64,000 nt of DNA from Demequina rhizosphaerae (lineage in GTDB: Bacteria; Actinomycetota; Actinomycetes; Actinomycetales; Demequinaceae), in the NCBI RefSeq assembly GCF_000971255.1, contig NZ_BBMC01000003.1, forward strand, positions 1 through 64,000, read 5' to 3'. Below, piece by piece: positions 887-63,764 of this stretch (positions are counted from its first letter, which is position 1; every line of letters starts with the position of its first letter). Below the pieces are notes generated by a model. The model ran no database searches. It saw only the letters and a program-made list of their open reading frames with translations, and was not told the origin of the DNA. The translations under genes were made by a program, and so were the position numbers.

Positions 887-3280
887 ATGACCGCTACCGC
901 GCCCATGCCGGCACTGGCCCACCCCCTCAGCGCGCTCGAGGGCGCCGCCTGGATCGCGCCGCACGAGCCCGACCCCGCGCCGCCCGGCGAGCGTCCCGCC
1001 CACCTGCTCCGCGCATCGTTCACCGTCGCGCCGAACCACGGACGTTTCCGGCTCGTCGCCACCGCGCACGGGATCTACGAGGCCTTCCTCAACGGCGCCC
1101 GCGTGGGCGACGACGAGCTCGAGCCGGGCTTCAGCGCGTACCGCAAGCGCCTCCAGGTGCAGGAGCACGACGTCACCGCGCTGGTCCGCGAGGGCGAGAA
1201 CACCCTGGTGCTCGTGCTCTCCGACGGGTGGTTCCGCGGCCGTCACGGCTTCCAGCGCCGCGCCGACGGCTTCGGCGAGCGCACCGCGGCGCTCGCGGCG
1301 GTCGTCGGTCCGGACGACGCGCCGCTCGCCGCGACCGGGCCCGGCTGGGAGTCGCGCGCGAGCCACATCACGCGGGCGGACCTCATGGACGGCCAGGCGG
1401 TCGACCTGCGCCTGCTCGACCCCGCCTGGTTCACCGGCGGCGGCGACGGCTGGCATCCCGTCGGCACGCCGGACGATGCGCTGCTCGCCGACCGCTCGCG
1501 CCTCGTGCCCGCCGAGGGCGCGCCCGTGCGCCGCGTCGAGGAGCTCGCGCCGGCCGCGATCACGACGCCGCGCCCGGGCACCGCGGTGATCGACCTGGGG
1601 CAGAACATCAACGGCTGGATGCGCCTGACGGACCTCGGGCCGGCAGGCACGCGCCTGACGCTCACCCACGGCGAGATCCTCGACGCGGACGGCCTCGTGA
1701 CCGTGGAGCACCTGCGCGCCTTCAACTTCGACACGCACGAGATGCTGTCCGCCGGACAGGTCGACGAGGTGGTCTCGGCCGGCCGCGTCGGCGACATCTT
1801 CGAGCCGCGGCACACCACGCACGGCTTCCGCTTCGTCCAGGTCGACGCCGTGCCGGACGGGCTCGACCTCACATCCGCCCGGGGCGTGATGGTGGAGACC
1901 GCCCTCGCGCGCACGGGCGAGTTCGCCTGCTCGGACCCGCGCCTCGAGCGGCTCCACGAGGCCGTGCGGTGGAGCCTGCGCGGCAACGCGTGCTCGGTCC
2001 CCACCGACTGCCCCCAGCGCGAGCGCTCGGGCTTCACGGGCGACTGGCAGATCTTCGTCGCCACGGGTGCGCTGCTGGCGGACGTCGACGAGTTCTCGCG
2101 CCGCTGGCTGCGCGACCTCGCCGCCGATCAGTGGGCGGACGGCCGCATCCCCACCGTGGTGCCCAACCCGCCGGGCGACCGGCCCTCGGGTGTCGCGTTC
2201 GAGGACATGTCCGCGGGCTCGGCAGGCTGGGGCGACGCCGCCGCCATCGTGCCATGGGAGCTGTGGCGGGCGTACGGGTCCGTGGACGGGCTGCGTGAGG
2301 CGCTGCCCGCCGCGCTCGCGTGGGTGCGGTACGCCGCGGGACGCGCCGCGGCGGGACGCCACCCCGACCGCGCCGCGGCGCGGCCGGAGCCGCTGCCGCA
2401 CGAGCGGTACCTGTGGGACACCGACTTCCACTTCGGCGAGTGGCTCGAGCCCGGCGAGGTCCCGAACCCCGACCCGACTGTCGACCACGGCATCGTCGCC
2501 ACCGCCTTCCTCCACCGCTCGGCGCACCTCGCGACGCTCATGGCCGGCCTCGTGGGGGAGGACGAGGCGGCCGCCGAGTGCCGCGCGATCGCGGACGGCG
2601 CGCTCGCGGCGTGGCGCGCCGAGTACCTGCGGCCCGACGGGAGCCTCGCGGAGGAGAAGCAGGCGCACTACGTCCGCGGCCTCGCGTTCGGGCTCGTCCC
2701 GGCCGAGCTGCGTCCGGCCGCGGCGGCCCGGCTCGCCGCGCTGATCGACGAGGCGGATGGGCTGCTCGGCACCGGCTTCCTCGCGACCGGCCAGCTGCTG
2801 CCGGCCCTGGCGGACCACGGCCAGGCGGACGTCGCGCATCGTCTCCTGGTCGAGACGCGGCTGCCGTCGTGGCTCGGCATGCTCGAGGCCGGCGCGACCA
2901 CGATGTGGGAGTGGTGGGACGGCGTCGCTGCGGACGGCACCGCGCGCGGATCGCTCAACCACTACTCCAAGGGCGCGGTCATCGGGTTCCTCCATACCCA
3001 CGTGGCGGGGCTGCGGCTGCCCGACGAGCCGGCGCCGGGGGAGGAGGCCTACCGTCGCGTGACGATCGCGCCGATGCCCGGCCCGGAGCTCACGTGGGCG
3101 CGCAGCCGCCAGCTGACGCGGCAGGGCCCCGTCGAGGTCGCGTGGCGGATCGACGGCGGGCGGTTCGCGCTCGCCGTCGACCTGCCGGCGGCGACCGAGG
3201 CAGACGTGCTGCTGCCCGACGGCACGTCGCACCGGGTGGCCGGCGGGGCGCACGAGCTCTCCTGCGCCATTGCGCGCTGA
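887..3280 (+). CDS. Alpha-L-rhamnosidase, GH78
   Basis: Predicted to release terminal alpha-L-rhamnose from rhamnosides (pectin side chains, flavonoid glycosides, saponins). It has 797 residues and no signal peptide, so it probably acts on imported oligosaccharides. The N-terminal half carries the beta-sandwich ligand-binding domain (A-H-G-I-Y-E-A-F-L-N-G; DGWFRGRHGF). The (alpha/alpha)6 barrel has the family signature DCPQRERSGFTGDW near residues 372-388, in which the Glu of RER is the expected general acid. A C-terminal beta domain follows. ATG 887 was chosen because AGGAGGA lies just upstream; in-frame starts back to 830 lack a site. Only 64 bases separate the start from an IS element, so its native promoter may have been displaced. 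It is a diverged second copy of the enzyme at 8766-11348. Confidence 0.9.
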   Translation: MTATAPMPALAHPLSALEGAAWIAPHEPDPAPPGERPAHLLRASFTVAPNHGRFRLVATAHGIYEAFLNGARVGDDELEPGFSAYRKRLQVQEHDVTALVREGENTLVLVLSDGWFRGRHGFQRRADGFGERTAALAAVVGPDDAPLAATGPGWESRASHITRADLMDGQAVDLRLLDPAWFTGGGDGWHPVGTPDDALLADRSRLVPAEGAPVRRVEELAPAAITTPRPGTAVIDLGQNINGWMRLTDLGPAGTRLTLTHGEILDADGLVTVEHLRAFNFDTHEMLSAGQVDEVVSAGRVGDIFEPRHTTHGFRFVQVDAVPDGLDLTSARGVMVETALARTGEFACSDPRLERLHEAVRWSLRGNACSVPTDCPQRERSGFTGDWQIFVATGALLADVDEFSRRWLRDLAADQWADGRIPTVVPNPPGDRPSGVAFEDMSAGSAGWGDAAAIVPWELWRAYGSVDGLREALPAALAWVRYAAGRAAAGRHPDRAAARPEPLPHERYLWDTDFHFGEWLEPGEVPNPDPTVDHGIVATAFLHRSAHLATLMAGLVGEDEAAAECRAIADGALAAWRAEYLRPDGSLAEEKQAHYVRGLAFGLVPAELRPAAAARLAALIDEADGLLGTGFLATGQLLPALADHGQADVAHRLLVETRLPSWLGMLEAGATTMWEWWDGVAADGTARGSLNHYSKGAVIGFLHTHVAGLRLPDEPAPGEEAYRRVTIAPMPGPELTWARSRQLTRQGPVEVAWRIDGGRFALAVDLPAATEADVLLPDGTSHRVAGGAHELSCAIAR

Positions 3281-3284
3281 GCCT

Positions 3285-3319
3285 GGTGGTCGGATCGATC
3301 GGCGATCGATCCGACCACC
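3285..3319. terminator. 16-bp perfect palindrome after the rhamnosidase gene
   Basis: GGTGGTCGGATCGATC (3285-3300) and its exact complement (3304-3319) flank a GGC loop, four bases after the stop codon. No T-run follows, as is common for high-GC terminators. It separates convergent genes. Confidence 0.7.
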
Positions 3320-3330
3320 GGGTACGAAAG

Positions 3331-3375
3331 AGCCCGTATGTCGGACCGACCGGGGATCGGTCCGACATACGGGCT
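3331..3375. terminator. 19-bp perfect palindrome, second of a pair
   Basis: AGCCCGTATGTCGGACCGA (3331-3349) pairs perfectly with 3357-3375 around a 7-base loop. It lies 16 bases past the minus-strand stop of the RhaD-like gene and would terminate it. The core GTCGGA(C/T)CGA is shared with the neighbouring palindrome, with matched changes in both arms. Confidence 0.72.
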
Positions 3376-4293: not shown

Positions 4294-4374
4294 CCACAGG
4301 TTCCCGGTGGCCGCGCGCGCCCAAGGTCCCGGGTCGGGCGGAGGTGCCGACGGCGGGACGATGCGGGGTGCTTC

Positions 4375-8769: not shown

Positions 8770-11348
8770 GCGCTGTCACCGGCGTCCGCGCCGGGCTCCG
8801 TTCCGACTGCCTCGGTGCCGCCCTGCCCGCGCCGCGGGTGTCCTGGCGCATCGTGGACGCCCCGGCGGGCGCCGTCCAGGATGCCGCCGAGCTGCGCCTC
8901 GTGCGCGACGGCGAGGTCGACTCGGTCGCGCTCGACGGCGCCGACCAGAACCTCGTCGACTGGCCCTTCGCGCCCCTGCGCTCGCGCGAGCGCACCGTGC
9001 TGACGGTGCGGTCCCGCGTCGCGGGGGAGTGGACCGCGTGGAGCGCGCCCCTCGAGGTCGAGGGCGCCCTCTACGAGCCGCACGACTGGCAGGCGCCGCT
9101 CGTGATGCCGTCCGCGTCGTTCCCGCATCGCACGCGGCCGTCCTGGCTGCTGCGGGCGTCCTTCACGCTCGACGAGGCCCCCGTGCGCGCACGTCTGTAC
9201 GCCACGGCGCAGGGCGTCTTCGTACCGTCGCTCAACGGCGCGGCGGTGTCCGACGAGGTGCTCGCGCCGGGCTGGACCAGCTACGACCACCGCCTGCGCT
9301 ACCGGGTCCACGACGTCACGGCGCTGCTGCGCGCGGGTGAGAACGTGCTCGGCGCGGAGCTGGCCGACGGCTGGTTCCGCGGCAACATCGGCTTCGACGG
9401 CGGCGTGTGGGACGAGTACGGCAAGCACGTCGGCCTGCTGCTGCAGCTCGAGGTCACCGGCGCGGACGGCGTCGCGCGCATCGTCGCCCTGGACGATGCG
9501 TGGCGCACCGCACCCGGCCCCGCCACCTCGGCGGGCCTGTACGAGGGCGAGGTCCACGACGCGCGGCTGCTGCCGCCCGGGTGGGACGCGCCGGGCTTCG
9601 ACGATGCGGCGTGGACCCGGCCCGAGCTGCGGCAGGCGGACGAGCTCGCCGCGCGCCTCGAGCCCGCCATCAACGAGCCGGTGCGCGTGATCGAGACGCT
9701 CGCGCCGGTGTCCGTCGAGACGCGCCCGAACGGGCGGATCCGCCTCGACTTCGGGCAGAACATCTCGGGCGTGCTCCGCGTCCGCATCGACGCCCCCGCC
9801 GGTCGCACGGTGACCCTCCACCACGCCGAGGTGCTCGAGGACGGCGAGCTGGGCACGCGCCCGCTGCGCCGCGCCGTCTCGATCGACTCCTTCACGTCCG
9901 CCGGCGAGCCTGAGACGTGGCAGCCCCGCCACACCGTCCACGGCTTCCGCTACGCGGAGCTCGAGGGCTGGCCGGGCGAGCTGGGTGACGGGGACGTCGT
10001 CGCCGCGGTGATCCACACCGCCATGGAGCGGCGCGGCTGGTTCGCGTGCAGCGACCCGCTGCTCGAGCGGCTCCACGAGAACGTCGTGTGGAGCATGCGC
10101 GACAACTTCGTCGACCTGCCGACCGACTGCCCGCAGCGCGACGAGCGCCTCGGCTGGACCGGGGACATTCAGGTCTTCGCGCCCGCAGCCGAGTTCCTCT
10201 ACGGCGCGGACGGCGTGCTCGCGTCGTGGTTGCGCGACGTCGCCGCCCAGCAGGGGCCGGACGGCTGGGTGCCCAACTTCGTGCCGTGGCTCGAGTGCGG
10301 CTTCCCGTCGGGCGCCTCCGCCGCCTGGGGCGACGCCGCCGTCGTGGTGCCCTGGGTGATGTGGCAGCGGCGCGGCAATCGCGGCGTCCTCGAGAGGCAG
10401 TGGCCCAGCATGACCGCCTGGGTCGAGCACCTGCTGCTGCGCATCGGCGCGGACGACGTGGTCGAGGACAGCATGGAGCTCGGCGACTGGCTCGACCCGG
10501 CGGCGCCGCCCGAGGACCCGGGCGCCGCCCGCACGGACAAGTACCTGGTGGCCTCCGCGTACGCGGTGCGCTCCGCGCGGCTCGTCGCGCAGGCCGCCGA
10601 GGTCCTCGGCCGCGCGCCGGAGAGGGAGCGGTACGCCGCGGTCGCGGACCGCGTGCTCGCGGGCATGCGGCGGCGCTGGCTCGACGACCTCGACGGCCTC
10701 GCGCACGCGCCGACCGCGCTCGCGCTCGTCATCGGGTTCGACCTCGCGCGGGACGACGACGAGCAACGACGGGCCGGGGCGCTGCTCTCCGCCGCCGTCC
10801 GCGAGGGCGGGCATCGCGTGCAGACCGGTTTCGTGGGGACGCCGATCATCTGCGACGCGCTCGCCTCGACCGGCCACCTCGACGATGCCTACGCGCTGCT
10901 GCTGCAGACCGAGTGCCCGTCATGGCTCTACCCCGTGACCATGGGGGCGACCACGATCTGGGAGCGGTGGGACTCGATGCTGCCGGACGGGCGGATCAAC
11001 CCCGGCGACATGACGTCCTTCAACCACTACGCGCTCGGCGCGGTGGTGGACTTCCTGCACCGCGTGGTCGCGGGTCTCGCGCCGGCCGCGCCGGGATACC
11101 GCGAGGTCGAGATCCGGCCGCGCCCGGGCGGCGGTCTCACGTCGGCGAGCGCACGCCACCTCAGCCCGTACGGCGAGATCCACGTGTCCTGGCGCATCGT
11201 CGGCGACGAGCTCGCGCTCGACGTCGAGCTGCCCGTGGGCGTCACCGGCGTGGTGACCCTGCCCGACGGCACCACCGAGGCGGTCGCCTCGGGATCCCAC
11301 ACGTTCCGCGGCGCGGCGCGCGCCCCGAGGAAGGAGACGCTGCGATGA
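8766..11348 (+). CDS. Alpha-L-rhamnosidase, GH78
   Basis: Full-length GH78 enzyme of 860 residues with no signal peptide. An N-terminal Ig-like domain (residues about 1-110) precedes the ligand-binding beta-sandwich (A-Q-G-V-F-V-P-S-L-N-G; DGWFRGNIGF). The (alpha/alpha)6 barrel carries the canonical DCPQRDERLGWTGD near residues 453-466, where the Glu of DER is the expected acid catalyst. Conserved barrel elements such as GATTIWERWDSM and FNHYALGAV follow. Translation is coupled to the upstream permease. Compared with the 797-residue paralogue at 887-3280 it has the extra N-terminal domain and the standard motif, so the two may differ in linkage or aglycone preference. Confidence 0.93.
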   Translation: MSAVTGVRAGLRSDCLGAALPAPRVSWRIVDAPAGAVQDAAELRLVRDGEVDSVALDGADQNLVDWPFAPLRSRERTVLTVRSRVAGEWTAWSAPLEVEGALYEPHDWQAPLVMPSASFPHRTRPSWLLRASFTLDEAPVRARLYATAQGVFVPSLNGAAVSDEVLAPGWTSYDHRLRYRVHDVTALLRAGENVLGAELADGWFRGNIGFDGGVWDEYGKHVGLLLQLEVTGADGVARIVALDDAWRTAPGPATSAGLYEGEVHDARLLPPGWDAPGFDDAAWTRPELRQADELAARLEPAINEPVRVIETLAPVSVETRPNGRIRLDFGQNISGVLRVRIDAPAGRTVTLHHAEVLEDGELGTRPLRRAVSIDSFTSAGEPETWQPRHTVHGFRYAELEGWPGELGDGDVVAAVIHTAMERRGWFACSDPLLERLHENVVWSMRDNFVDLPTDCPQRDERLGWTGDIQVFAPAAEFLYGADGVLASWLRDVAAQQGPDGWVPNFVPWLECGFPSGASAAWGDAAVVVPWVMWQRRGNRGVLERQWPSMTAWVEHLLLRIGADDVVEDSMELGDWLDPAAPPEDPGAARTDKYLVASAYAVRSARLVAQAAEVLGRAPERERYAAVADRVLAGMRRRWLDDLDGLAHAPTALALVIGFDLARDDDEQRRAGALLSAAVREGGHRVQTGFVGTPIICDALASTGHLDDAYALLLQTECPSWLYPVTMGATTIWERWDSMLPDGRINPGDMTSFNHYALGAVVDFLHRVVAGLAPAAPGYREVEIRPRPGGGLTSASARHLSPYGEIHVSWRIVGDELALDVELPVGVTGVVTLPDGTTEAVASGSHTFRGAARAPRKETLR

Positions 11349-12415
11349 GCGGCGAGCGTTACACGAGCTTCCGACCCGGCCAGGAGTGGCTCGACACGTC
11401 CGGCAGCCCGATCCAGGCCCACGGCGGATCGATCATCGCGGTCGACAGCACGTACTACTGGTACGGCGAGAACAAGGAGCGCACCACCCCCGGCTCCGGC
11501 ATCTGGCACTGGGGCGTGCGCTGCTACTCCTCGACGGACCTCTACAACTGGACCGACGAGGGCGTGATCATCCCTCCCGACGAGGATGACCCCGCCTCGC
11601 CGCTGCACCCGGGCCGCGGCATGGACAGGCCCCACATCGTCCACAACCCGCACACCGGGAAGTACGTGTGCTGGATCAAGGTGATGTCCGGCTCGGTGCA
11701 GCTGTCGACCACGCTGGTCGCGGACTCGATCCTGGGCCCGTACACCAAGGCCAAGGTCGACTTCCGTCCGCTCGGCATGTACGCGGGCGACTTCGACCTC
11801 GTGGTCGACCCCGAGGACGGCAAGGGCTACTACGTCTTCGAGCGCGTCCACTCGGAGCTCATCATCGCCGACCTCACGGACGACTTCACGGACGTCACGG
11901 GGTACTACTCGACGCACTTCCACCACGGGCGGCCGCCGTTCACGCGCGAGGCGCCCGCGCATCTCCGCCGCCACGGCCGCCACTACCTGGTGACGAGCGG
12001 CACCACGGGGTACTACCCCAACGCCTCGGAGGTGGCGACGGCGCGCACCATGCACGGGCCGTGGACCATCGTGGGCGACCCGCACCCGGACGATGCGTCA
12101 CGCACCTCGTACCGCACGCAGGTGAGCTCCGTGTTCAAGGTGCCCGACCGGGACGTCTACATCGCGCTGGGCGACCGCTGGCTGCCCGACTACGAGGCCG
12201 ACGGCGCCGAGGCGTACGACCTGTTCGACGAGTACTTCGCGAAGATCGAGGCGGGGATGCCCGACACGGGCATGCGCGAGCTCACCGTGCCGGATCCGTC
12301 GCGGGCCCGCTACGTGTGGCTCCCCATCCGCTTCGCCGACGACGGCCGGGTCCTCATCGACTGGCACGACGAATGGACGCTCGAGGACACGGGACACGCG
12401 CCGGGCGGGCGCTGA
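11345..12415 (+). CDS. GH43-like glycosidase
   Basis: 356-residue protein with the five-bladed beta-propeller features of GH43/GH117-type enzymes. The opening IQAHGGSIIAVDSTYYWYGE is typical of family members related to exo-beta-1,3-galactanases. It continues with M-D-R-P-H-I-V-H-N, a Y-A-G-D-F-D-L-V-V-D segment and a final D-W-H-D-E-W strand. There is no signal peptide. It is the last gene of the transporter-rhamnosidase operon, coupled by ATGA. It probably removes galactose, arabinose or another sugar from imported rhamnogalacturonan-type fragments; the exact specificity cannot be read from sequence. Confidence 0.75.
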   Translation: MSGERYTSFRPGQEWLDTSGSPIQAHGGSIIAVDSTYYWYGENKERTTPGSGIWHWGVRCYSSTDLYNWTDEGVIIPPDEDDPASPLHPGRGMDRPHIVHNPHTGKYVCWIKVMSGSVQLSTTLVADSILGPYTKAKVDFRPLGMYAGDFDLVVDPEDGKGYYVFERVHSELIIADLTDDFTDVTGYYSTHFHHGRPPFTREAPAHLRRHGRHYLVTSGTTGYYPNASEVATARTMHGPWTIVGDPHPDDASRTSYRTQVSSVFKVPDRDVYIALGDRWLPDYEADGAEAYDLFDEYFAKIEAGMPDTGMRELTVPDPSRARYVWLPIRFADDGRVLIDWHDEWTLEDTGHAPGGR

Positions 12416-36511: not shown

Positions 36512-36609
36512 CGGAGGACCGCGGTCGTCTCGGCCGCCCAGGCCTCCGCCTCACCGGGCTCGTCGACGCATCGTCGCCGGCGGGCCCGACGCATCGTCCC
36601 GACCGTGCA

Positions 36610-45543: not shown

Positions 45544-45735
45544 GCCTGCAATCCTAGGCAACGCGCCCTTAGGTTACGGTGCCGTAGGTCCCGAAGCGCC
45601 GCCCCGTCCCGACAGTGCGCACGGACGCGCCCGCGACGCGCCGGCGGGCGGGGACGATGCGCGGGCTTCCTCGGCGTGTCGGCGCGGGATCCGTGCGCGC
45701 CGTCGGGCGCCGGGGGGTTGTCAGCGTCCGTAACG

Positions 45736-46462: not shown

Positions 46463-46486
46463 CGCCGCCGGCGCATCGTCCCGCGT

Positions 46487-49101: not shown

Positions 49102-50046
49102 ATGAGCATCCGTGTCAACGTCGACACCTTCGTGCGCGCCGAGACCGACCGCATGTTCGCGGACATCCAGCGGAGCGCCGGCGGGCCGGGGCGCCTCGCG
49201 CACCATCGCGCGCCCACGCCGATCGACCAGCAGACCGTCATCCGCATGAACCGCGACACGCTCTACAGCTTCGGCGTGGTCGACCTCGCGCGCCCGGTCA
49301 CGCTCACGCTGCCGGACGCGGGCGGCCGGTACCTGTCCGCGATGATCGTGAGCAACGACCACCACATCCCCGTGATCCTGCACGATGCGGGCGACCACGT
49401 CCTCGACGAGGCGACGGTGGGCACGCGGTACGCGCTCGTCGCGCTCCGGATCCTGGTCGACCCCGGCAGCGAGGACGACGTCGCGGCCGTCGGCGCGCTC
49501 CAGGACGCCGTGGCGCTCTCCGGCGGCGGGGGAGAGCCCTTCGTGTACCCCGACTACGACGCCGAGAGCCTGGACGCCACGCGCGAGGCCCTGCTCGCGC
49601 TCGCCTCGGGGCTGAGCGACTACACGGGCGCGTTCGGCCGCCAGGGCGAGGTCGACCCGATCCACCACCTCATCGGCACGGCGTCCGGCTGGGGCGGGCT
49701 GCCCACGAGCGAGGCCGTCTACGTGTCGCTCGCGCCGGACGATGCGGCGGCGGACCGACAGATCGTGCTCGCCGACGTCCCCGTCGACGCGTTCTGGTCG
49801 ATCTCCGTGTACAACGGCGCCGGCTTCTTCGAGCCCAACCCCTACGACCGGTACACCGTCAACAGCGTCACCGCGACGGCGGACGATGCGGGGGCCGTGG
49901 CCGTCCGGATGGTGCACGGCGAGCCGGCGGGCCCGAACGACATCCCGGTCCCGGACGCGTGGGGGATCGTGCTGCGGCTCTACCGCCCGCGCGACGAGAT
50001 CCGCGACGGGACCTGGCAGGCGCCGCCGCTGGAGCCGATCGCCTAG
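49102..50046 (+). CDS. DUF1254/DUF1214 domain protein
   Basis: 314 residues. The N-terminal DUF1254 part has D-Q-Q-T-V-I-R-M-N-R-D-T-L-Y-S and a beta-rich core; the C-terminal DUF1214 part carries FWSISVYNGAGFFEPNP, N-D-I-P-V-P-D-A-W and LRLYRP. No signal peptide, although many relatives are exported. Function is not established for the family. ATG 49102 follows AGGAGGAGGC. The TAG stop shares CTAG with the convergent membrane-protein gene. Confidence 0.8.
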   Translation: MSIRVNVDTFVRAETDRMFADIQRSAGGPGRLAHHRAPTPIDQQTVIRMNRDTLYSFGVVDLARPVTLTLPDAGGRYLSAMIVSNDHHIPVILHDAGDHVLDEATVGTRYALVALRILVDPGSEDDVAAVGALQDAVALSGGGGEPFVYPDYDAESLDATREALLALASGLSDYTGAFGRQGEVDPIHHLIGTASGWGGLPTSEAVYVSLAPDDAAADRQIVLADVPVDAFWSISVYNGAGFFEPNPYDRYTVNSVTATADDAGAVAVRMVHGEPAGPNDIPVPDAWGIVLRLYRPRDEIRDGTWQAPPLEPIA

Positions 50047-50498
50047 GCGCCCTCGACGACCACCGGACGGCGCGCGTGCCATGCCAGGGCGAAGCCGAGG
50101 ACGGACGCGCCGGCGTGCATCATCGTGAACCACAGCGTGATCGAGAACCCCAGCATGCCGAGGCCCGACTCCGGGAAGTCCCAGTTCCACACGACGATCG
50201 CGGCGGCCAGCTCGACCACGGCTGCCGCGAGCCCGGCGATGGCGCTGCGCGCGGTCGCGAGCGGCCGGGACGCGGCGAGGGTGAGCCCGACGACCGCCGC
50301 GAACGCGACATGCACGAGCGCGACCCACGGCGCGGCGGTCTCGAGCCCCGTCGCGTTGCCCAGCCAGCCGCGGTTCTTCGACTCCGCGAAGGAATAGGTC
50401 GCCATCGCGAGCAGGACCAGTAGCGCCGCGCCGCCGCTCGCCGCGACCCACCCGGCTGCGGCGGCACCGCGCCCGGCAACCGCCGCATCGTCCCTCAT
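50043..50498 (-). CDS. Small four-helix membrane protein, function unknown
   Basis: 151 residues with four predicted helices (GWVAASGGAALLVLLAMA; WVALVHVAFAAVVGLTLAA; AIAGLAAAVVELAAAIVVW; TLWFTMMHAGASVLGFALAW). ATG 50498 lies seven bases after TAACTT and has no ribosome site, matching the leaderless pattern. A longer frame from 50549 would run into the neighbouring gene. Confidence 0.65.
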   Translation of the reverse strand: MRDDAAVAGRGAAAAGWVAASGGAALLVLLAMATYSFAESKNRGWLGNATGLETAAPWVALVHVAFAAVVGLTLAASRPLATARSAIAGLAAAVVELAAAIVVWNWDFPESGLGMLGFSITLWFTMMHAGASVLGFALAWHARRPVVVEGA

Positions 50499-52232: not shown

Positions 52233-53867
52233 CTACTCGACCCAGCGGGAGGTGATCGGCAGGCGGCGGTCGCGGCCGAAGGCGAGCGCCGTCACCTTGG
52301 GGCCCGGCGGGTACTGGCGGCGCTTCCACTCCGCGCGGTCGACCAGCGACAGCACCTTGTCGACCACGGCCTCGTCGAATCCGCGCGCCAGCAGCTCCTC
52401 GCGGCCCTCGGCGTGCTCGACGTACGCGTCGAGGACCTGGTCGAGCAGCGCGTAGTCGGGCAGCGAGTCGCTGTCGCGCTGGTCGGGGCGCAGCTCCGCG
52501 GACGGCTCCTTGTCGATCGAGCTCTGCGGGATCGGCTCCACCTCGCCCCGGGAGCGCGCGAACGCGTTGCGCCACCGCGACAGCTCCCACACGCGGGTCT
52601 TGTCGAGGTCCTTGATCGGCGCGAACGCGCCCACCGCGTCGCCGTAGACGGTGGAGTACCCGACCGCGAGCTCGGACTTGTTGCCCGTCGCGAGCGTGAA
52701 CACGCCCTCCGAGTTCGAGATGCCCATGAGGATCATGCCGCGCACGCGGGCCTGGATGTTCTCCGCGGCCACGGCCGACAGCTCCATCTGCTGCTCGAAG
52801 GCCTCGACCATCGGCATGATGTGCTGCACGCGGTAGTCGGCGCCGAGGCGGTGCGCGAGATCCATGGCGTCGTCGCGCGAGTGCGGCGACGAGTAGCGCG
52901 ACGGCATCGAGACGCCGATGACGTTCTCCCCGCCGAGCGCGTCCGCCGCGATCGCCGCGACGAGCGCCGAGTCGATGCCGCCGGACAGGCCCAGCACCAC
53001 CTTCGACATCCCGCTCTTGCGCACGTAGTCGCGCAGGCCGGTCACGCACGCCCAGTAGGTCTGCTCGTCGAGCGACTCGTCGGGCGCGATCCCGGACGGC
53101 TCGGCGGCCACGCCGGCCTCCGGCACGTCCCACACCATGAGCGCGTCGGTGAAGCCGGGCGCGGACGCCACCATCTCGCCGGACGCCGACACGATGAACG
53201 AGTGGCCGTCGAAGACCAGGTCGTCCTGGCCGCCCCACAGGTTGACGTACGCCAGCGGCGCGCCCACCTCGCGCGCCCGCTTCGCGGCGAGCTCGACGCG
53301 CGTGTGGCCCTTGCCCTCCTCGAACGGCGAGCCGTTGAGCACCACGAGCAGGCGCAGGTCGCGGCCCGACAGCGCCGCGACGGTGCCGCCGTCCTGCCAG
53401 ATGTCCTCGCAGATGGCCAGGCCCACGGGGGACGATGCGGCGGTCACCACGCACGCGTCGTCGCCGGCCGCGAAGATGCGCCGCTCGTCGAACACGCCGT
53501 AGTTGGGCAGGTGGTGCTTGTTGTAGCGGGCGGCCACCTCGCCGCCCGAGAGCACCACCGCCTGGTTGAAGGGCATGCCGCCCTCCGACACCCCGAGCGT
53601 GCCGAGGATCACCATGAGCTCGCCGAGGCCCTCGGCCGCGAGCGTCGCCGCGATGTCGTCGACGGCGCGGGCGGCGGCGCGCTGGAAGCTCTCGCGCAGC
53701 GCGAGGTCCTCGATGGGATAGCCGGTCGTGGTCATCTCGGGGAACGCCACCACGTGCGCGCCGAGCGCATGCGCGGCGCGGCAGCGGTCGAGGATCAGGG
53801 CGGTGTTACCTGCGATGTCGCCCACGCAGGTGTTGATCTGGGCGAGCGCGATGCGAAGGTCGGACAT
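52233..53867 (-). CDS. nadE: Glutamine-dependent NAD+ synthetase
   Basis: 544 residues. The N-terminal nitrilase-type glutaminase domain has the triad Glu44 (FPEMTTTGYP), Lys117 (NKHHLPNYG) and Cys153 (AICEDIW). The C-terminal synthetase domain has the PP-loop LGLSGGIDSALVAAI. It converts deamido-NAD+ to NAD+ using glutamine nitrogen. TACGCT six bases before the ATG fits a leaderless message. Divergent from glnA. Confidence 0.95.
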   Translation of the reverse strand: MSDLRIALAQINTCVGDIAGNTALILDRCRAAHALGAHVVAFPEMTTTGYPIEDLALRESFQRAAARAVDDIAATLAAEGLGELMVILGTLGVSEGGMPFNQAVVLSGGEVAARYNKHHLPNYGVFDERRIFAAGDDACVVTAASSPVGLAICEDIWQDGGTVAALSGRDLRLLVVLNGSPFEEGKGHTRVELAAKRAREVGAPLAYVNLWGGQDDLVFDGHSFIVSASGEMVASAPGFTDALMVWDVPEAGVAAEPSGIAPDESLDEQTYWACVTGLRDYVRKSGMSKVVLGLSGGIDSALVAAIAADALGGENVIGVSMPSRYSSPHSRDDAMDLAHRLGADYRVQHIMPMVEAFEQQMELSAVAAENIQARVRGMILMGISNSEGVFTLATGNKSELAVGYSTVYGDAVGAFAPIKDLDKTRVWELSRWRNAFARSRGEVEPIPQSSIDKEPSAELRPDQRDSDSLPDYALLDQVLDAYVEHAEGREELLARGFDEAVVDKVLSLVDRAEWKRRQYPPGPKVTALAFGRDRRLPITSRWVE

Positions 53868-55286: not shown

Positions 55287-58286
55287 ATGAGCGCGCGCGA
55301 GGTCTCCTTCACCACGCTGCTGAGGCGTGCGGGCGCCGCCGACCCCGCGCGCGCGGCCGGCCTGGTCGAGGAGATCCAGGGCATCGTCGGGATCGAGTTC
55401 CCGGACCCGGCGACGCTCGTGTCGTACCTCGCGGACCCGGACGCGGGCCTGCTCCAGCTGGTGCGGCTCGCGGAGGCCGCGCGCGACGCCGGCCACCTCG
55501 ACACGCTCCGCGGCCTGGCGGCGACCGAGGCGGGCGCCAAGCTGGGCGTGCTGCTGGGCGGCTCGCTCGCGCTCGGCGACTTCCTCATCCGCCATCCCGA
55601 GCTGCTCGCGGACTTCACGGCGTGGGCGGACGCGCCGGCGTTCCCCGAGGTCGACGTGCGGGCTGTCCTGCTCGAGGCCGTCGGGGCAGACCCCGCGGAC
55701 GAGGCGCCGGTCGCCGCGCTCGGCGGCGCCGAGGGGCAGGTGGCGATGCGGGTGGCGTACCGCCGCGCGCTCATGCGCGTCGCCGCCGAGGATCTGTACT
55801 CGCCCGCGCCGCCGACGCTCATGCCGGCGGTCGGCGCCGCGCTCGCGGACCTCGCCGGTGCCGCGCTCGAGGCGGCGCTCGCGATCGCGCGCCACGACGA
55901 GCCGGACCACGCCGCGACGCGCCTCGCGATCATCGCGATGGGCAAGTGCGGCGCGCGGGAGCTCAACTACGTCTCCGACGTCGACGTCATCTACGTCGCC
56001 GAGCCCGCCGAGGGCGTCGAGGACGAGCGCTCGCTGCGGGTCGCCACGAGGCTCGCGGTCGCCGCCGCGAAGTTCTGCTCGGGCATGGGCATCGAGCCCG
56101 CGCTGTGGGAGGTGGACCCCAACCTGCGGCCCGAGGGCCGTGACGGGCCGCTCGTGCGCAACGTCTCCGCGCATCGTGCCTACTACGAGCGGTGGGCGGA
56201 GACCTGGGAGTTCCAGGCGCTGCTCAAGGCCCGCCCCGTCGCGGGCGACCCTGCGGTGGGGGAGCGCTACATCGAGGCGATGTGGCCGATGGTGTGGAGC
56301 GCGGTCGAGCGCGACGGCTTCGTCGAGTCCGCGCAGGCGATGCGCCGCCGCGTCGAGCAGCACGTGCCGTCCGCGGAGGCGGACCGGCAGATCAAGCTCG
56401 GCCCCGGCGGGCTGCGCGACGTCGAGTTCACCATCCAGATGCTCCAGCTCGTGCACGGTCGAGCCGACGAGTCGCTGCGCGTGCGGGGCACCCTCGACGC
56501 GCTCGCCCGGCTGCGCGCCGGCGGCTACGTGGGCCGCCCGCAGGCGGCGACGATGGACCGCTCGTACCGCCAACTCCGCGTGTGGGAGCACCGGCTCCAG
56601 ATGCGCAAGCTCACCCGCACCCACCTCATGCCCGAGGGGGACCAGGAGCGCCGGGTCCTCGCCCGCGCGTCCGGCTTCGCCACGGTGCACTACATGGACG
56701 AGGTGTGGACCGACATCCGGCGCGACGTCCGCGCGATGCACCTCGAGATGTTCTACCGGCCCATCCTGCCCGTGGTGGCACGCCTGTCCGCCGACGAGGC
56801 GCGGCTGGACGATGCGGCGGCCCGGGCCCGCCTGGCGGCGGTGGGCTTCGTCGACCCGGCCGGGGCGTACCGCCACATCCAGGCGCTCACCGAGGGCGTC
56901 TCGCGATCCGCGGCGATCCAGCGGCAGCTCATGCCGGCGATGATCGGGTGGTTCGCGCAGGGCGCGGATCCCGACGCGGGGCTGCTCGCGTTCCGCCAGC
57001 TCTCCGAGCAGCAGGCGAGCTCGCAGTGGTACCTCAAGCTCCTGCGCGACTCCGCGACGGCGGCCGAGCGGCTCGCCCGCCTGCTGTCGACCTCCGGGTA
57101 CGTCGCCCGCGCGCTGCTCGCCTCGGGCGAGGCGGTGACGTGGCTGGACCGCGACGAGGACCTCGTGCCGCGCGCCTACGAGCGGCTGTGGGGCGAGGCG
57201 GACGCGGTGCTGCGCCGCTCCAACGATCCCGCGCAGGCGATCACCGCGCTGCGCGGACTGCGCCGCCGCGAGCTGTCGCGCGTCGCCGCCGCCGACGTGC
57301 TCGGCATGATCAACGCCTCGCACGCCGCGAAGGCCGTGTCGCACGCGGCGGACATGGTGATCGAGGGCGCGCTGCGCATCGCGCAGCACCGGGTGCGGGA
57401 GGCGCGCGGCCTCGACGAGCTGCCGATCCGCTTCGCGGTCGTCGCGATGGGCCGCTACGGCGGTCTCGAGATGGGCTACCAGTCCGACGCGGATGTGCAG
57501 TTCGTGTGGGACGGGGACGCCAAGGACGGCCAGGCGATCGCGGTGCAGGTCGCGCAGGAGCTGCGGACCTTGCTCCAGAAGGTGGGGCCGCAGCCGCCTC
57601 TCGAGATCGACGCCGACCTCCGGCCCGAGGGCCGCAACGGCCCGCTCGCGCGCTCGCTCGCCTCGTGCACCGAGTACTACGGCCGCTGGGCGGACGCGTG
57701 GGAGGCGCAGGCGCTGCTGCGGGCGCGGCCCTGCGCGGGCGACCTCGAGCTGCGGGACGCCTTCGTCCGCATGATCGACGAGGTCCGCTACCCGCCCAGG
57801 CTGCCGGACGGCGCGCTCAAGCAGATGCGGCTGCTCAAGGCGCGCATGGAGGCCGAGCGCCTCCCGCGCGGCATCGACCCGCGCCGCCACCTCAAGCTCG
57901 GCCCCGGCGGCCTGTCCGACGTCGAGTGGGTGGTGCAGCTCACGCAGCTGCGCCACGGTCACGCCCACCCCGAGCTGCGCACCACCATGACGCTCGAGGC
58001 GCTCGCCGCCGCCGCGGACCTCGACCTCATCGCCCGTCCCGACGCGACCATCCTGCGGTCCGCGTGGGTGCTCGCGACGGACCTGCGCGGCGCGCTCGCG
58101 CTGCGCGGCAACGTCCGCGACACGGACGTCCTGCCCGGTGACGTGCGCGAGCTGGGCGTGCTCGCGGAGATCCTGGGCAGCACACGCTCCGGCTCGCAGC
58201 TCGACGAGCGGTACTCCCGCAACGCCCGCCGTGCCCGCGCCGTCACCGAGCGGCTGTTCTTCGGCTGGGACGAGGACGCGCGGTGA
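55287..58286 (+). CDS. glnE: Bifunctional glutamine synthetase adenylyltransferase/adenylyl-removing enzyme
   Basis: 999 residues, normal for GlnE. The N-terminal adenylyl-removing nucleotidyltransferase domain contains GKCGARELNYVSDVDVIYV (about 218-236); the C-terminal adenylyltransferase domain contains GRYGGLEMGYQSDADVQFVW (about 722-741). Each is followed by LKLGPGG(L)xDVE-type helices. ATG follows AGAGGGGGC. Forms an operon with glnA and overlaps the next gene by GTGA. Confidence 0.95.
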   Translation: MSAREVSFTTLLRRAGAADPARAAGLVEEIQGIVGIEFPDPATLVSYLADPDAGLLQLVRLAEAARDAGHLDTLRGLAATEAGAKLGVLLGGSLALGDFLIRHPELLADFTAWADAPAFPEVDVRAVLLEAVGADPADEAPVAALGGAEGQVAMRVAYRRALMRVAAEDLYSPAPPTLMPAVGAALADLAGAALEAALAIARHDEPDHAATRLAIIAMGKCGARELNYVSDVDVIYVAEPAEGVEDERSLRVATRLAVAAAKFCSGMGIEPALWEVDPNLRPEGRDGPLVRNVSAHRAYYERWAETWEFQALLKARPVAGDPAVGERYIEAMWPMVWSAVERDGFVESAQAMRRRVEQHVPSAEADRQIKLGPGGLRDVEFTIQMLQLVHGRADESLRVRGTLDALARLRAGGYVGRPQAATMDRSYRQLRVWEHRLQMRKLTRTHLMPEGDQERRVLARASGFATVHYMDEVWTDIRRDVRAMHLEMFYRPILPVVARLSADEARLDDAAARARLAAVGFVDPAGAYRHIQALTEGVSRSAAIQRQLMPAMIGWFAQGADPDAGLLAFRQLSEQQASSQWYLKLLRDSATAAERLARLLSTSGYVARALLASGEAVTWLDRDEDLVPRAYERLWGEADAVLRRSNDPAQAITALRGLRRRELSRVAAADVLGMINASHAAKAVSHAADMVIEGALRIAQHRVREARGLDELPIRFAVVAMGRYGGLEMGYQSDADVQFVWDGDAKDGQAIAVQVAQELRTLLQKVGPQPPLEIDADLRPEGRNGPLARSLASCTEYYGRWADAWEAQALLRARPCAGDLELRDAFVRMIDEVRYPPRLPDGALKQMRLLKARMEAERLPRGIDPRRHLKLGPGGLSDVEWVVQLTQLRHGHAHPELRTTMTLEALAAAADLDLIARPDATILRSAWVLATDLRGALALRGNVRDTDVLPGDVRELGVLAEILGSTRSGSQLDERYSRNARRARAVTERLFFGWDEDAR

Positions 58287-59164
58287 GGGCGCTGCGCACC
58301 GTCCTGTCGGCGCTGCTCATCCTCGCGGGCGCCTCGCTCATCGCGCTGTGGGCCGTGAGCGGCGTGGTGGTGAAGGCCGTCGAGGACGGCACCGCGGTCC
58401 ACGCCATCGCCGAGCGGGCCCTCGCCGACGACGTCATCGTCGACGCGGTGGGCGACGCGATCGCGGACGGCGCGCTCGACGCGCTCGCCGACGCCGGCGT
58501 CGACCTGTCGCTCCTGGGCCTCGACGACGTCGTGCGCTCGGCGATCGAGGGCGCCGCCCGCACGCGGGACTTCCGCACCGCCGTCCTCGCGCAGGTGGAC
58601 GATGCGCACGGTCAGTTCTCCGCCGAGCTCACCGCGGAGGAGCGCGAGCCGGGCCCGCTCGTCATCGACATCGACCCGTCGGACTACGTCAACGGCCAGA
58701 TCGACCAGATCCCGGTGGTGGGGGCGGCCGCGCCCGAGGTCACCATCGCGCCCGTCCCGGTCGAGGTGATGGACGCCGAGTCGTTCGACGACGTGCGCCG
58801 CGGCTACGGGCTCATCGAGCTCGCGCAGCGGTGGGCGCTGTGGGCGGGCCTCGCGCTCATCGTGCTCGGGCTGTTCGTCACGCAGCGGCTCCGCTGGTTC
58901 ATGGCGAAGGCGGGCCTCGCGGTCGGCGTCATCGCGGGCGCGCTGTGGCTCGCGCTGCGGTGGTGGGGCGTCGACGGCATCGCCGCGGTGCTGCCGGGCG
59001 GCGCGGACGGCACGGCCGGCAGCGCGCTCGTGCGGATCGTGAGCGAGGACACGGTCGCGATGCTCGAGGACCGGCTGAGCGTCATCGCGCTGATCGGCTT
59101 CGCGGTCGCGGCCGTCTTCCTGGTGGTCGCGCTCCTGACCCGGCCGCGCGCCCGCACCGCCTAG
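58283..59164 (+). CDS. Membrane protein of unknown function downstream of glnE
   Basis: 293 residues: one N-terminal helix (TVLSALLILAGASLIALWAV), an extracytoplasmic region of about 140 residues rich in Asp and Ala, then three helices (ALWAGLALIVLGLFV; AGLAVGVIAGALWLAL; VIALIGFAVAAVFLVVALL). GTG overlaps the glnE stop, so it is translationally coupled. No family recognised. Confidence 0.75.
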   Translation: MRALRTVLSALLILAGASLIALWAVSGVVVKAVEDGTAVHAIAERALADDVIVDAVGDAIADGALDALADAGVDLSLLGLDDVVRSAIEGAARTRDFRTAVLAQVDDAHGQFSAELTAEEREPGPLVIDIDPSDYVNGQIDQIPVVGAAAPEVTIAPVPVEVMDAESFDDVRRGYGLIELAQRWALWAGLALIVLGLFVTQRLRWFMAKAGLAVGVIAGALWLALRWWGVDGIAAVLPGGADGTAGSALVRIVSEDTVAMLEDRLSVIALIGFAVAAVFLVVALLTRPRARTA

Positions 59165-59180: not shown

Positions 59181-60086
59181 CTACCGCGCGGGGCGCGGGG
59201 CGTCGAGCAGCGGCGACAGCTGGCGGCTCGTGATCGCGCGGACGGCCTGCGCGGATCCCGCCTCGAGCGCCTCCCACAGCGCGTCGCCCGTGAGCGCCGC
59301 CGCGCCGCCCACGCGCAGCGCGTGCGACATCACGCCCGCGGCGAAGGCGTCGCCCGCGCCGTTGGGGTCGACCACGTCGACCTGGGGCGCCTCGACCCGC
59401 GCGAACGAGCCGTCGGGCCCGACCGCGATCGCGCCGCGCGCGCCCAGCGTGCAGACCGCGAGCGTCTTGCCGTCCGCCACGAGCCCGCGGAGGTAGGTCG
59501 ACGGCGCCTGGATCCGGTCGCCGTTCATCAGCACCACGTCCGCCGCCTCGAGGAACGGCCGGTGGAAGGCCTCCTCGCCGTCGTAGTCGTGGAGGTCGAC
59601 CCACACCTCGTGCGCGAGCGCCGTCACCTCCGGGATGAGGCGGCGCGAAAGGTCGGCGAGGTCGAGGAACACCGCGCGCACCTGGCCGAGCGCCTCGCGC
59701 GCGGTGGCGCGGGCGCGCCGCAGCTCCTCGTCGGGGAGCTCGCCGGCGGCCTGGAGGTAGATGGAGACCCGCTCGCCGCGCGCGGACATGAGGTTGAGGT
59801 GGCGCTCGGTCGGGCCGTCGGTCCGCGCGGCCCGCACGTCGACGCCGCAGCCCCGCAGCGCGTCCATGAGGCCTTGGCCCGTCGCATCGTCCCCTTGCGT
59901 GGTGAGGAGCAGCGTGCCGACTCCGCGGTCGACGAGGTGGAGGGCCTTGCCGGCGGAGGTGCCGCCGAGCGCGGTGGTCGAGGAGCGCGCGAAGACCGTG
60001 TGCGGCTCGGGGCGCGGGAGCTCGTCGAGCAGGACGATCTGGTTCTCGCTCGTGGGCCCGACCACGAGCACGTCGAGGTCAGTCAT
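59181..60086 (-). CDS. PfkB-family carbohydrate kinase
   Basis: 301 residues, ribokinase superfamily. The N-terminal GGTSAGKALHLVDRG and the C-terminal anion-hole/catalytic segment VDPNGAGDAFAAGV are seen; the usual Thr of DTTGAGD is replaced (DPNGAGD). The start overlaps the end of the LacI-family gene by eight bases. With the alpha-glucosidase upstream, a role in sugar phosphorylation under LacI control is inferred. Confidence 0.85.
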   Translation of the reverse strand: MTDLDVLVVGPTSENQIVLLDELPRPEPHTVFARSSTTALGGTSAGKALHLVDRGVGTLLLTTQGDDATGQGLMDALRGCGVDVRAARTDGPTERHLNLMSARGERVSIYLQAAGELPDEELRRARATAREALGQVRAVFLDLADLSRRLIPEVTALAHEVWVDLHDYDGEEAFHRPFLEAADVVLMNGDRIQAPSTYLRGLVADGKTLAVCTLGARGAIAVGPDGSFARVEAPQVDVVDPNGAGDAFAAGVMSHALRVGGAAALTGDALWEALEAGSAQAVRAITSRQLSPLLDAPRPAR

Positions 60087-61113
60087 GGCGCCCGGGCGCG
60101 ACGGCGGTCGAGCGCCGCACCGTGAGGTCGTAGGGCAGCTCGCGCGCGGTGTGCTCGTGCGGGCCCTGCGGGCGCAGCTCGGCGAGCAGCAGCTCCGCGG
60201 CGAGGCGGCCCTGCTCGACCGGCCGCTGGTCCACGGTGGTGAGCCCGAAGAACGTGCCCAGCTCGTGGCCGTCGATGCCGATCACCGACAGGTCCTCCGG
60301 CACGCGCAGGCCCAGGGAGCGGGCCGCGAGGATCGCGCCGATGGCCATCTCGTCCGACGCGGCGAAGATGGCGGTGGGACGGCGGCGGGGGTCGCCGAGG
60401 ATCTGCAGCGCGGCCTGGTGGCCGCCCTCGATGGTGAAGTCGCCGTCGAGGCGCAGCGCCGGGTCGAGCTCGATGCCGGCGGCGGTGAGCGCGTCCTCGT
60501 AGCCCTCGCGCCGGCGGGCCGGCAGGTGGAAGTCGAGGTTGAAGCCCTCGGAGCCGCCGATGAACGCGATGCGGCGGTGGCCCAGCGACGTGAGGTGGGA
60601 GGTGGCCAGGTTCGCCACGGCCCGGTCGTCGAGGCTGAGCGTGGTGACGCCGCGCAGCGGGCCGCCGAGGCCGACCATCGGCTTGCCCAGGTCGTGGATC
60701 CGGTCGAGCTCCTCGTCGGTGAGCTCGAGAGAGACCGCGATGAACGCGTCGACGCGCTTGCGACCGAGGAACTCGGAGAACAGCCGGCGGCGGCGCTCGG
60801 GATGCCGGTCGGTGTCCTCGAGGTGGTAGAGCGTGAGGTCGTAGCCCGCGTCGGCGAGCGCGCGGTGCGCGCCCTTGAGGACGCTCGCGTAGTACCAGCT
60901 GCCCAGGTACGGCATGACGATGCCGACGTTCCGGGTGCGGCCCGAGGCGAGGGACGATGCGTTGGCGGACGCGACGTAGCCGAGCGACCGGGCGGCCTCC
61001 TCGACCTTGAGCCGGGTGGCCTCGGAGACGGTGGACTTGCCTGCGAGCGCGCGCGACACGGTCGCGGTGGACACGCCGGCCAGCTCGGCGACCCGTTGGA
61101 TCGTCGCCACCAT
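60079..61113 (-). CDS. LacI-family regulator of the alpha-glucosidase cluster
   Basis: 344 residues. Helix-turn-helix TIQRVAELAGVSTATVSRAL, with the classical S-T-A-T-V-S-R recognition helix of MalR/CcpA-like regulators, and a sensor domain with LSLDDRAVANLATSHL and IGIDGHELG. ATG 61113 follows AAGGAGCC. The likely operator is at 62925-62938 before the GH13 gene. Probably responds to a glucoside or phosphorylated sugar. Confidence 0.9.
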   Translation of the reverse strand: MVATIQRVAELAGVSTATVSRALAGKSTVSEATRLKVEEAARSLGYVASANASSLASGRTRNVGIVMPYLGSWYYASVLKGAHRALADAGYDLTLYHLEDTDRHPERRRRLFSEFLGRKRVDAFIAVSLELTDEELDRIHDLGKPMVGLGGPLRGVTTLSLDDRAVANLATSHLTSLGHRRIAFIGGSEGFNLDFHLPARRREGYEDALTAAGIELDPALRLDGDFTIEGGHQAALQILGDPRRRPTAIFAASDEMAIGAILAARSLGLRVPEDLSVIGIDGHELGTFFGLTTVDQRPVEQGRLAAELLLAELRPQGPHEHTARELPYDLTVRRSTAVAPGRHD

Positions 61114-62838: not shown

Positions 62839-62924
62839 GGTGTCCTCTCATTCGCTTCCGGCCCGGCTCTCGGGCACGAAGGAACCCGCGTGCGCGCCGT
62901 CGAGCCTCGCGGGGTCCCGCCCAA

Positions 62925-62938
62925 TGTAAGCGGTTGCA
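62925..62938. promoter_or_regulatory. LacI/MalR-type operator and promoter of the alpha-glucosidase gene
   Basis: TGTAAGCGGTTGCA matches the general LacI-family operator TGyAAnCGnTTrCA. On the minus strand TTGCGC, 18 bases, then TACATT overlaps the operator's outer edge, so a repressor would cover the -10. It lies 87 bases before the GTG start. Confidence 0.65.
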
Positions 62939-63041
62939 GTCCCGGGGCGCAAACCGGCGCGCGGGGTGCCGGGAATCGCCCGCCGATGATGGTTGTTGCG
63001 TCATCCAACCGCGCGCGTGCGCGCCCGCCCGAGGAGGACCC

Positions 63042-63764
63042 ATGACCGCGATCTGCCCGAGCCGCCGCGGTGCCGCGGCATCCGGCCGCCCCGCCGACGC
63101 ATCGTCCGACCGTCCGCTGGACCCGCCCGCCGCCGAGCTCCGCACCGCCGTGACGGTGCCGCTGCGGTTCCCGGACGGCTATGCGACCACGGGGCGCGTC
63201 ATGACCTTCGACGACCTCGTCGACGGGCGCGAGCACCTCGCGATCGGCCTCGGCGACTGGGAGGGGGCCCTGGCCCGCGCGGCGGCCGGGGGCGAGGCGC
63301 CGCTGGTGCGGCCGCACTCGGAGTGCCTCACCGGGGACGTGCTGGGCTCCGAGCGGTGCGACTGCGGACCGCAGCTGCGCGAGGCCGTCGAGCGGATCGC
63401 CGACGAGGGCGGGATCCTGCTGTACCTGCGCCAGGAGGGCCGCGGCATCGGGCTGTACGCGAAGCTCGACGCGTACGCGCTGCAGGACGCCGGGCTCGAC
63501 ACGTACGAGGCGAACGTCGCGCTCGGACACGGCGAGGACGAGCGCGACTACGCGCCTGCGGCCCAGATGCTCCGCGCCGTCGGCGTCGAGCGGATCCGGC
63601 TGCTGAGCAACAACCCGGACAAGGCGGCGCAGCTCGAGCTGCTCGGCGTCGACGTCGACGAGCGCGTCCCGACCGGCGTGCACGTCACCGCCGCGAACGC
63701 GCGCTACCTCGCCGCCAAGGTCGACCGCACCGACCACACGCTCGCGCTTCCCGATCGCGCCTGA
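63042..63764 (+). CDS. ribA: GTP cyclohydrolase II
   Basis: 240 residues; opens GTP to start riboflavin synthesis. The zinc site is GSERCDCGPQL, with the upstream RPHSECLTGD, and YLRQEGRGIGL and LLSNNPDKAAQLELLGVDV further on, all family hallmarks. An N-terminal extension of about 35 residues is low-complexity and contains the GGACGATGCG word as Ala-Ser-Ser. ATG 63042 follows GAGGAGGACCC. No other rib genes are adjacent, so this may be a stand-alone copy. Confidence 0.93.
   Translation: MTAICPSRRGAAASGRPADASSDRPLDPPAAELRTAVTVPLRFPDGYATTGRVMTFDDLVDGREHLAIGLGDWEGALARAAAGGEAPLVRPHSECLTGDVLGSERCDCGPQLREAVERIADEGGILLYLRQEGRGIGLYAKLDAYALQDAGLDTYEANVALGHGEDERDYAPAAQMLRAVGVERIRLLSNNPDKAAQLELLGVDVDERVPTGVHVTAANARYLAAKVDRTDHTLALPDRA

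Follow-up and report, generated by a model that had tools for sequence, protein, structure and literature searches.

DNA uptake in the Neisseriaceae and Pasteurellaceae is guided by short, repeated words. The uptake signal sequence (USS) of the Pasteurellaceae has a core of about 9 bp with a weaker extension and recurs about once every 1 to 2 kb. According to a 2025 paper (PMC12616744), the Neisseriaceae and the Pasteurellaceae are the only families known to carry such uptake motifs. For the actinobacterium Micrococcus luteus, natural transformation has been described with ComEA/ComEC and Flp/Tad pili, and the accessible portion of that report (PMC6370729) gives no M. luteus uptake word. Here, we describe a 10-bp word, GGACGATGCG, in the first 64,000 nucleotides of contig NZ_BBMC01000003.1 of Demequina rhizosphaerae, the stretch referred to below as the window. 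Its abundance, strand balance, core, dialects, and substitution-led turnover, together with the presence of a competence gene set, are documented below; by its testable features, GGACGATGCG appears to work like a DNA uptake sequence, and it probably is that of naturally competent Demequina, with dialects among its species. Among the matches listed in our literature searches, no title or abstract opening concerned an actinobacterial uptake word (most subscription papers and bioRxiv were outside the scope), none was relevant to natural transformation in Demequina, and none of those containing the letters of GGACGATGCG dealt with bacterial genomes, judged by title.

Abundance, selection, and dialects of the word

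The window holds 24 exact copies of GGACGATGCG between positions 1471 and 63107, 13 on the plus strand and 11 on the minus strand, a recount identical to that of an earlier, sequence-only reading of this DNA. The over-representation noted there also stands; 100 dinucleotide-preserving shuffles gave a mean of 0.78 and a maximum of 4, compared with its chance estimate of 0.3. The genome of 3,034,373 bases (15 contigs, 98.4% complete) contains 1371 copies, or one per 2.2 kb, of which 688 are forward and 683 reverse; the reversed word, serving as the control, was counted three times forward and zero times in reverse. For 370,562 bases of this genome, an order-3 Markov model predicts 5.7 copies; the actual number is 174, far above the near-Markov count that had been named as the mark of chance. 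Strand splits within the four contigs sampled by at least 40 kb were 35/29, 28/28, 20/19, and 10/6. Over 426,764 bases, the number of copies per 10-kb bin had a mean of 4.64 and a variance of 5.99 (42 bins), which indicates near-random spacing. The density was 1.73 per 5 kb in the low-GC half versus 2.84 in the other half.

As already proposed from the window, the evidence supports selection of the DNA word rather than of the encoded protein. Specifically, when the spellings of Asp-Asp before GCG were counted on both strands in a sample of the same genome, GGACGATGCG occurred 197 times and the synonymous GGACGACGCG, GGATGATGCG, and GGATGACGCG occurred 17, 1, and 3 times, respectively. The spellings are thus far from the equality that the earlier reading had associated with codon bias, and codon use was rejected as the cause because the three alternatives total only 21. 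Genes were called with a crude caller based on GC content at third codon positions (GC3). By this assignment, 19 of the 24 window copies lie within genes, 18 of them in one frame, and five lie outside, one more than the four intergenic copies listed previously. The near-uniform frame reported for the window is therefore correct there, but it weakens in the larger sample, where 55 of 69 sense copies and 35 of 57 antisense copies share one frame. Outside genes, 72 of 198 copies were found in the 23.2% of the 426,764 bases called noncoding, a 1.6-fold excess that is approximate because the GC3 gene caller is rough.

One-mismatch neighbors changed at positions 4 to 9 occur near expectation, the largest excess being that of GGACGAGGCG (25 versus 15.3), and most of those changed at positions 1 to 3 or at position 10 clearly exceed it. 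The word is followed by a weak 3′ extension, with G in 76% of cases at +12, G in 69% at +13, and C in 63% at +15 (offset 0 being the first letter), resulting in the extended form GGACGATGCG-N-c-G-G-N-C. Within 60 bp, the 198 copies form eight opposed pairs, five divergent and three convergent (1.36 expected per orientation); for divergent pairs within 25 bp, five were found versus 0.57 expected (P = 3e-4). One of these divergent pairs sits between converging genes, its midpoint 23 bases from the end of one and 19 from the end of the other, and a scan for a T-run terminator at this pair found none.

Comparison with named glnA loci assigned the genome to Demequina. Words were then counted in 44 Demequina genomes, labeled G000 and so forth, in which dialect A denotes GGACGATGCG. 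Fifteen genomes contain 711 to 1564 copies of GGACGATGCG and the remaining 29 contain 10 to 235, with a reversed control of at most 11; three genomes from two other genera of the same family have 4 to 29 copies. A sister word, GGCCGATGC, is at least 8-fold over its control in 19 of the 44 genomes, none of them among the 15 rich in GGACGATGCG, in which its excess is 1.1- to 6.0-fold. A third word, CCCGACGCTG, was counted 663 times in G009 (control, 17), 209 times in G012 (control, 33), and 2 to 51 times in the other 42 genomes, and its intermediate abundance in G012 suggests a decaying or rising dialect. Overall, 35 of the 44 genomes have one strong word, and nine (G001, G003, G005, G007, G012, G013, G026, G027, and G032) have a weak, an unusual, or no word. 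A de novo word search in samples of 40 to 200 kb from 24 genomes returned GGCCGATGCG in G014, G016, G033, and G034; GGCCGATGCC in G008, G015, G023, G036, and G039; GGCCGATGCT in G010; GGGACGATGC in G026; and GCCCGACGCT in G009. No strong word emerged from the samples of G003, G007, G012, G018, G021, G027, G031, and G042, although whole-genome counts showed that G018, G021, G031, and G042 do have one. The dialect words share a core, CGATGC or CGAYGC. On a midpoint-rooted ComEC tree of 30 genomes, including 10 of the 15 dialect-A genomes, the spellings largely follow the branching. GGACGATGCG is present in two separate clades, one of eight genomes and the other consisting of the pair G004 and G038, nested among G012, G027, and G001, which are without GGACGATGCG; genomes with GGCCGATGC occupy the remaining clades.

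Three side observations concern these counts. In G001 (loci L047, L048, L173, and L174), GCGCTCGCGG was found 27 times versus 3.1 in 80 kb and is possibly a further dialect in the clade lacking the known ones. In D. sediminis (L059 and L060), CTCCGCCACA and longer forms occur about ten times in 40 kb; this is probably a local tandem repeat, because the word drops from the top words when no more than one copy per 150 bases is counted. In the listed positions of GGCCGATGC, seeming runs on one strand were rejected as an effect of listing forward copies first: a 40-kb stretch of G016 holds 23 copies versus about 12 forward ones in the list, and the totals are balanced.

Turnover of the word was followed at orthologous sites in four close relatives with 82 to 86% nucleotide identity. 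Of 31 aligned window words, 13 were identical, 8 had one mismatch, and 10 had more, with a gap in one of the 31; the relatives' own words, aligned to the window, showed a gap in 2 of 25. In the background, 25.5% of 10-mers were unchanged (P = 0.033 for the comparison with 13/31, the rows not being independent). Among 29 sites aligned in seven more distant congeners, not one retains GGACGATGCG. Sites are thus gained and lost mostly by substitution, as would be expected if recombination favored label-bearing alleles.

Competence genes, pilus operons, and words beyond the genus

ComEC was found in 43 of the 44 Demequina genomes, the exception being an 85% complete draft, and N-methyl pilins were found in all 44. 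The D. rhizosphaerae genome has comEA-comEC at locus L209 and a pilus operon at locus L207, ahead of aroC. This operon comprises PilB, PilT-like and PilC-like frames (named without a Pfam test), a major pilin, two more N-methyl pilins, PilD, PilM, and two frames in the places of PilN and PilO without a Pfam hit. As PilB, PilD, PilM, pilins, ComEA, and ComEC are present, the parts for pilus-driven transformation exist.

The pilus operon was compared at 18 loci, of which that of G027 gave a single weak match. Before aroC (L207 and L210 to L225), two divergent operon types occur in Demequina, and they do not follow AroC similarity. Specifically, G002 and G017 share GGACGATGCG with G000 and are close to it in AroC (95 and 94%), but for PilM, PilN, and PilD they have the other type, as if operon types had been exchanged between species. 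An orphan pilin of approximately 134 residues, encoded outside the pilin cluster, emerged from the N-methyl pilin search as a ComP-like candidate and was rejected as the sole receptor on account of absences and of tree mixing (see below); in the dialect-A genome G011, its only match outside the cluster was weak and partial, 37% over residues 42 to 134. The HhH region of ComEA was inspected by eye in 30 genomes, and no dialect signature is claimed for it. The reader of GGACGATGCG is possibly a surface protein outside the pilus operon and distinct from the orphan pilin, or ComEA itself. D. sediminis (G026), with ComEC in pieces, was not used as a case of competence loss: its pilB and pilD matches are also cut short and the assembly is 92% complete, which makes errors of assembly no less likely than loss.

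Across the order, the word GGMCGATGC was counted in 297 genomes, namely 23 of Demequina, one other of the same family, and 273 others; G001, G012, and G027, among the congeners with weak words, were outside this draw. It reaches at least 382 per Mb in 22 of the 23 Demequina genomes (108 in G003) and at most 239 per Mb in other families. Within family f20, it rises up to 10.5-fold over control (G098, 599 versus 57), and single genomes outside f20 reach up to 8.4-fold (G073); related words are possible in f20 and elsewhere.

Outside the genus, 74 loci of 9 to 21 kb were scanned for words, and two words were then counted in whole genomes. The first, AGGAGGCGCG, is unrelated to the Demequina word and was found 1422 times in Frigoribacterium sp. 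Leaf8 (L101; control, 13) and 1214 times in Frigoribacterium VKM Ac-2836 (L094; control, 18). Ten other genomes, including a Frigoribacterium metagenome-assembled genome (MAG) with 19 copies, have 11 to 99. In 61 kb of Leaf8, some close opposed pairs of AGGAGGCGCG were seen. The second, CGGATGCCG, is 15- to 40-fold over its reversed control in five Microbacteriaceae genomes (L127, L110, L135, L085, and L090), with 2650 copies in Microbacterium ureisolvens (control, 128), 2375 in Galbitalea SE-J8 (96), 1509 in Mycetocola manganoxydans (38), 1382 in Herbiconiux (91), and 1245 in Cryobacterium tepidiphilum (58). In 15 other genomes it numbers 150 to 822, and one of these, a Rhodoglobus MAG, shows an 11-fold excess (740 versus 66).

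PilM was present in 14 of 30 genomes tested, comprising all eight with a strong word and six among the 22 others. Seven of the eight had been counted genome-wide at 15-fold or more, and the eighth is D. gelatinilytica, with its word taken from a 21-kb locus; the chance of eight in eight is 5e-4, computed by hand and uncorrected for kinship. Further sampling of four of the six PilM-positive others revealed no strong word, and two of them gave weak GGATGCC words. Note that de novo calls in samples of 20 to 80 kb were distrusted if they fell short of about 10-fold or lgP −9, because a PilM-negative Phycicoccus gave an lgP of −6.4. In two Knoellia loci of about 21 kb each (L112 and L140), GTATGCCGT occurred 8 times versus 0.13 and 5 times versus 0.11; there was no PilM hit.

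Explanations for the word

Among the options raised by the sequence-only reading, a DNA uptake signal is the best supported, because the strands are balanced, sister species have dialects, and the genomes encode competence proteins and type IV pili. We infer that Demequina is transformable, that its uptake prefers GGACGATGCG, and that a protein of the kinds considered above reads the word. A surface DNA receptor, associated with either the type IV pilus or ComEA, would prefer free DNA bearing GGACGATGCG; ComEC would import one strand, and recombination would swap out the resident allele. With word-bearing fragments entering more often, word-bearing alleles would be copied into genomes more often, and point mutations that make the word would accumulate on both strands wherever the protein tolerates them, up to the point at which losses through mutation and drift offset the gain. 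A shift of receptor specificity in a lineage would then slowly rewrite its genome to a new dialect.

Several observations weigh against this explanation. Gene content is no predictor of the word, since G012, G027, and G001, in which the word is weak or absent, also have ComEC and pilins. The search for a receptor gave no match: the division into two pilus operon types does not coincide with dialect, both occurring with dialect A; the orphan pilin has no match outside the pilin cluster in the dialect-A genomes G020 and G037; and in a tree of 30 pilins, orphan pilins from dialect A are interspersed with those from dialect B, so that, without such a match in two genomes and unsplit by dialect, this protein is not the sole receptor. 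Inverted pairs of GGACGATGCG are scarce (198 copies yield 8 opposed pairs spaced by at most 60 bp), conservation of the word over background is modest (13/31 versus 25.5%), and 6 of the 29 aligned sites in the seven more distant congeners are gapped, the alignments being poorer there. The link between PilM and a strong word is confounded with family; within the Microbacteriaceae alone, membership being taken from record titles, it amounts to 7/13 versus 0/4, which is not significant (computed by hand). Moreover, for 12 of the 22 other genomes, the word was assessed by the short-locus scan alone.

The strongest competing explanation, in our judgment unlikely, is that GGACGATGCG is bound by a chromosomal protein serving the nucleoid, repair, or segregation and is maintained by selection at many places, in the manner of dispersed SMC-, MatS-, or HIP1-like sites. 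The genome-wide, dense, near-random spread of the word and its excess outside genes would suit such a site, but the dialects differ between congeners, the word is neither palindromic nor polar, and its positions are not conserved, as none of the 29 aligned sites is kept in the seven further congeners. We know of no chromosomal protein with more than 1000 sites respelled within one genus, and neither a nucleoid site nor a methylation site would readily predict dialects together with such a density. Lower in probability, and quite improbable overall, is an epigenetic or restriction-modification mark, in which a methylase plus a linked process would favor modified self DNA. Marking of self and non-self would likewise yield species dialects, and asymmetric recognition sites occur in type I and III systems; restriction by itself, however, multiplies no site, and restriction sites are usually avoided rather than enriched. 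GGACGATGCG is short, frequent, and nonpalindromic, as a Chi- or KOPS-type guide of recombination or segregation would be, but its strands are balanced both genome-wide (688/683) and within four contigs (origin and terminus being unmapped); we agree with the earlier argument against a skewed motif and consider such a guide very improbable. A small repeat that spreads, also among the options first listed, or the remnant of a transposable element would account for the many copies and is just as improbable: the flanks are not conserved past the weak G at +12, G at +13, and C at +15, sites in close relatives differ by substitution with gaps in only 1/31 and 2/25, and, unlike REP/BIME or MITE-like elements, GGACGATGCG has no conserved longer unit and shows no insertion at empty sites. 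Finally, codon usage or mutational bias would fit the in-gene frame bias (Asp-Asp-Ala) but can practically be dismissed in view of the synonymous spellings (17, 1, and 3 versus 197), the reversed control of 3, the noncoding excess, and congeners of about 70% G+C without GGACGATGCG.

Taking the uptake explanation beyond the genus, we lean toward the view that sequence-specific self-DNA uptake extends past two proteobacterial families, being widespread in the Micrococcales and tied to type IV pili, with evolving dialects in Demequina and the independent words AGGAGGCGCG and CGGATGCCG in the Microbacteriaceae. If GGACGATGCG is an uptake sequence, actinobacteria acquired specificity of uptake separately from the Neisseriaceae and Pasteurellaceae, and one genus holds several dialects as well as lineages that seem to have lost theirs or to be changing them. 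Natural transformation would then be predicted in many environmental actinobacteria, the receptor could be found by matching proteins to dialects, and the question of why uptake words exist, for mate recognition or as a by-product of receptor bias, would become testable in a further lineage.

Window copies and comparison with known systems

The first copies in the window, all on the plus strand, lie at 1471..1480 in an alpha-L-rhamnosidase gene (830-3280, plus), at 4356..4365 outside called genes, at 9491..9500 in a called gene (7968-11348, plus), and at 12088..12097, again outside called genes. The last of these is followed by 18 kb without GGACGATGCG (12098-30063), and about 0.05 such stretches would be expected over all gaps; the genes inside concern sugar use (GH3, an aldolase/SDR fusion, and an ABC ATPase), and the stretch may be recently acquired DNA. 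The next copy (30064..30073, minus), in a LacI-type regulator gene (29691-30689, minus), is the sole in-gene copy off the common frame. An ABC ATPase gene (33440-35158, plus) contains three copies, two of which form the left arm (34276..34285, minus) and the right arm (34294..34303, plus) of an inverted pair, followed by 34345..34354 (minus). Further minus-strand copies lie at 36590..36599 outside called genes and at 38002..38011 in a LytR-CpsA-Psr family gene (37784-38998, plus). A zinc-binding dehydrogenase gene has one at 41990..41999 (plus), and the called gene 42628-43728 (plus) has two, at 42867..42876 and 43590..43599 (both minus). The copy at 45652..45661 (plus) is outside called genes, and that at 46472..46481 (minus) is between the called genes 45785-46462 and 46487-47095. 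A DUF1254/DUF1214 gene carries copies at 49737..49746 and 49881..49890 (both plus), and the called gene 50043-50549 (minus) carries one at 50484..50493 (minus). The copy at 53430..53439 (plus) is antisense in an NAD synthase gene (52233-53867, minus), with the same found in D. gelatinilytica and D. silvatica. The remaining copies lie at 56807..56816 (plus) in glnE, at 58597..58606 (plus) in a called gene (58283-59164, plus), at 59883..59892 (minus) in a PfkB-family kinase gene, at 60952..60961 (plus) antisense in a LacI-type regulator gene (60079-61113, minus), and at 63098..63107 (minus) in a called gene (62820-63764, plus).

Among known words, HIP1 of cyanobacteria is a hyper-abundant, short, palindromic word of unclear role; GGACGATGCG is likewise hyper-abundant and short but not palindromic. 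The USS of the Pasteurellaceae, unrelated in sequence and phylum, resembles the Demequina word in its extension (+12, +13, and +15 in Demequina) and in its density (one per 2.2 kb in Demequina). Micrococcus luteus shares actinobacterial ComEA and ComEC with Demequina, but it uses Flp pili (PMC6370729), whereas the Demequina operon is type IVa-like and includes PilB, PilD, and PilM. Compared with the Neisseriaceae, which use a DNA uptake sequence (DUS) and the receptor ComP, Demequina is an actinobacterium with a GC-rich word of unrelated sequence, and a ComP equivalent was not found among the pilins and operon tested. Inverted pairs, few in Demequina, occur "in high numbers" in the Neisseriaceae (PMC3630211). 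The DUS resembles the Demequina word in being a short, nonpalindromic word with more than 1000 copies, with inverted pairs, and with a link to pilus-based transformation, which is predicted from gene content in Demequina. Its dialects follow phylogeny and share the core CTG (PMC3630211), just as those of Demequina share CGATGC or CGAYGC.

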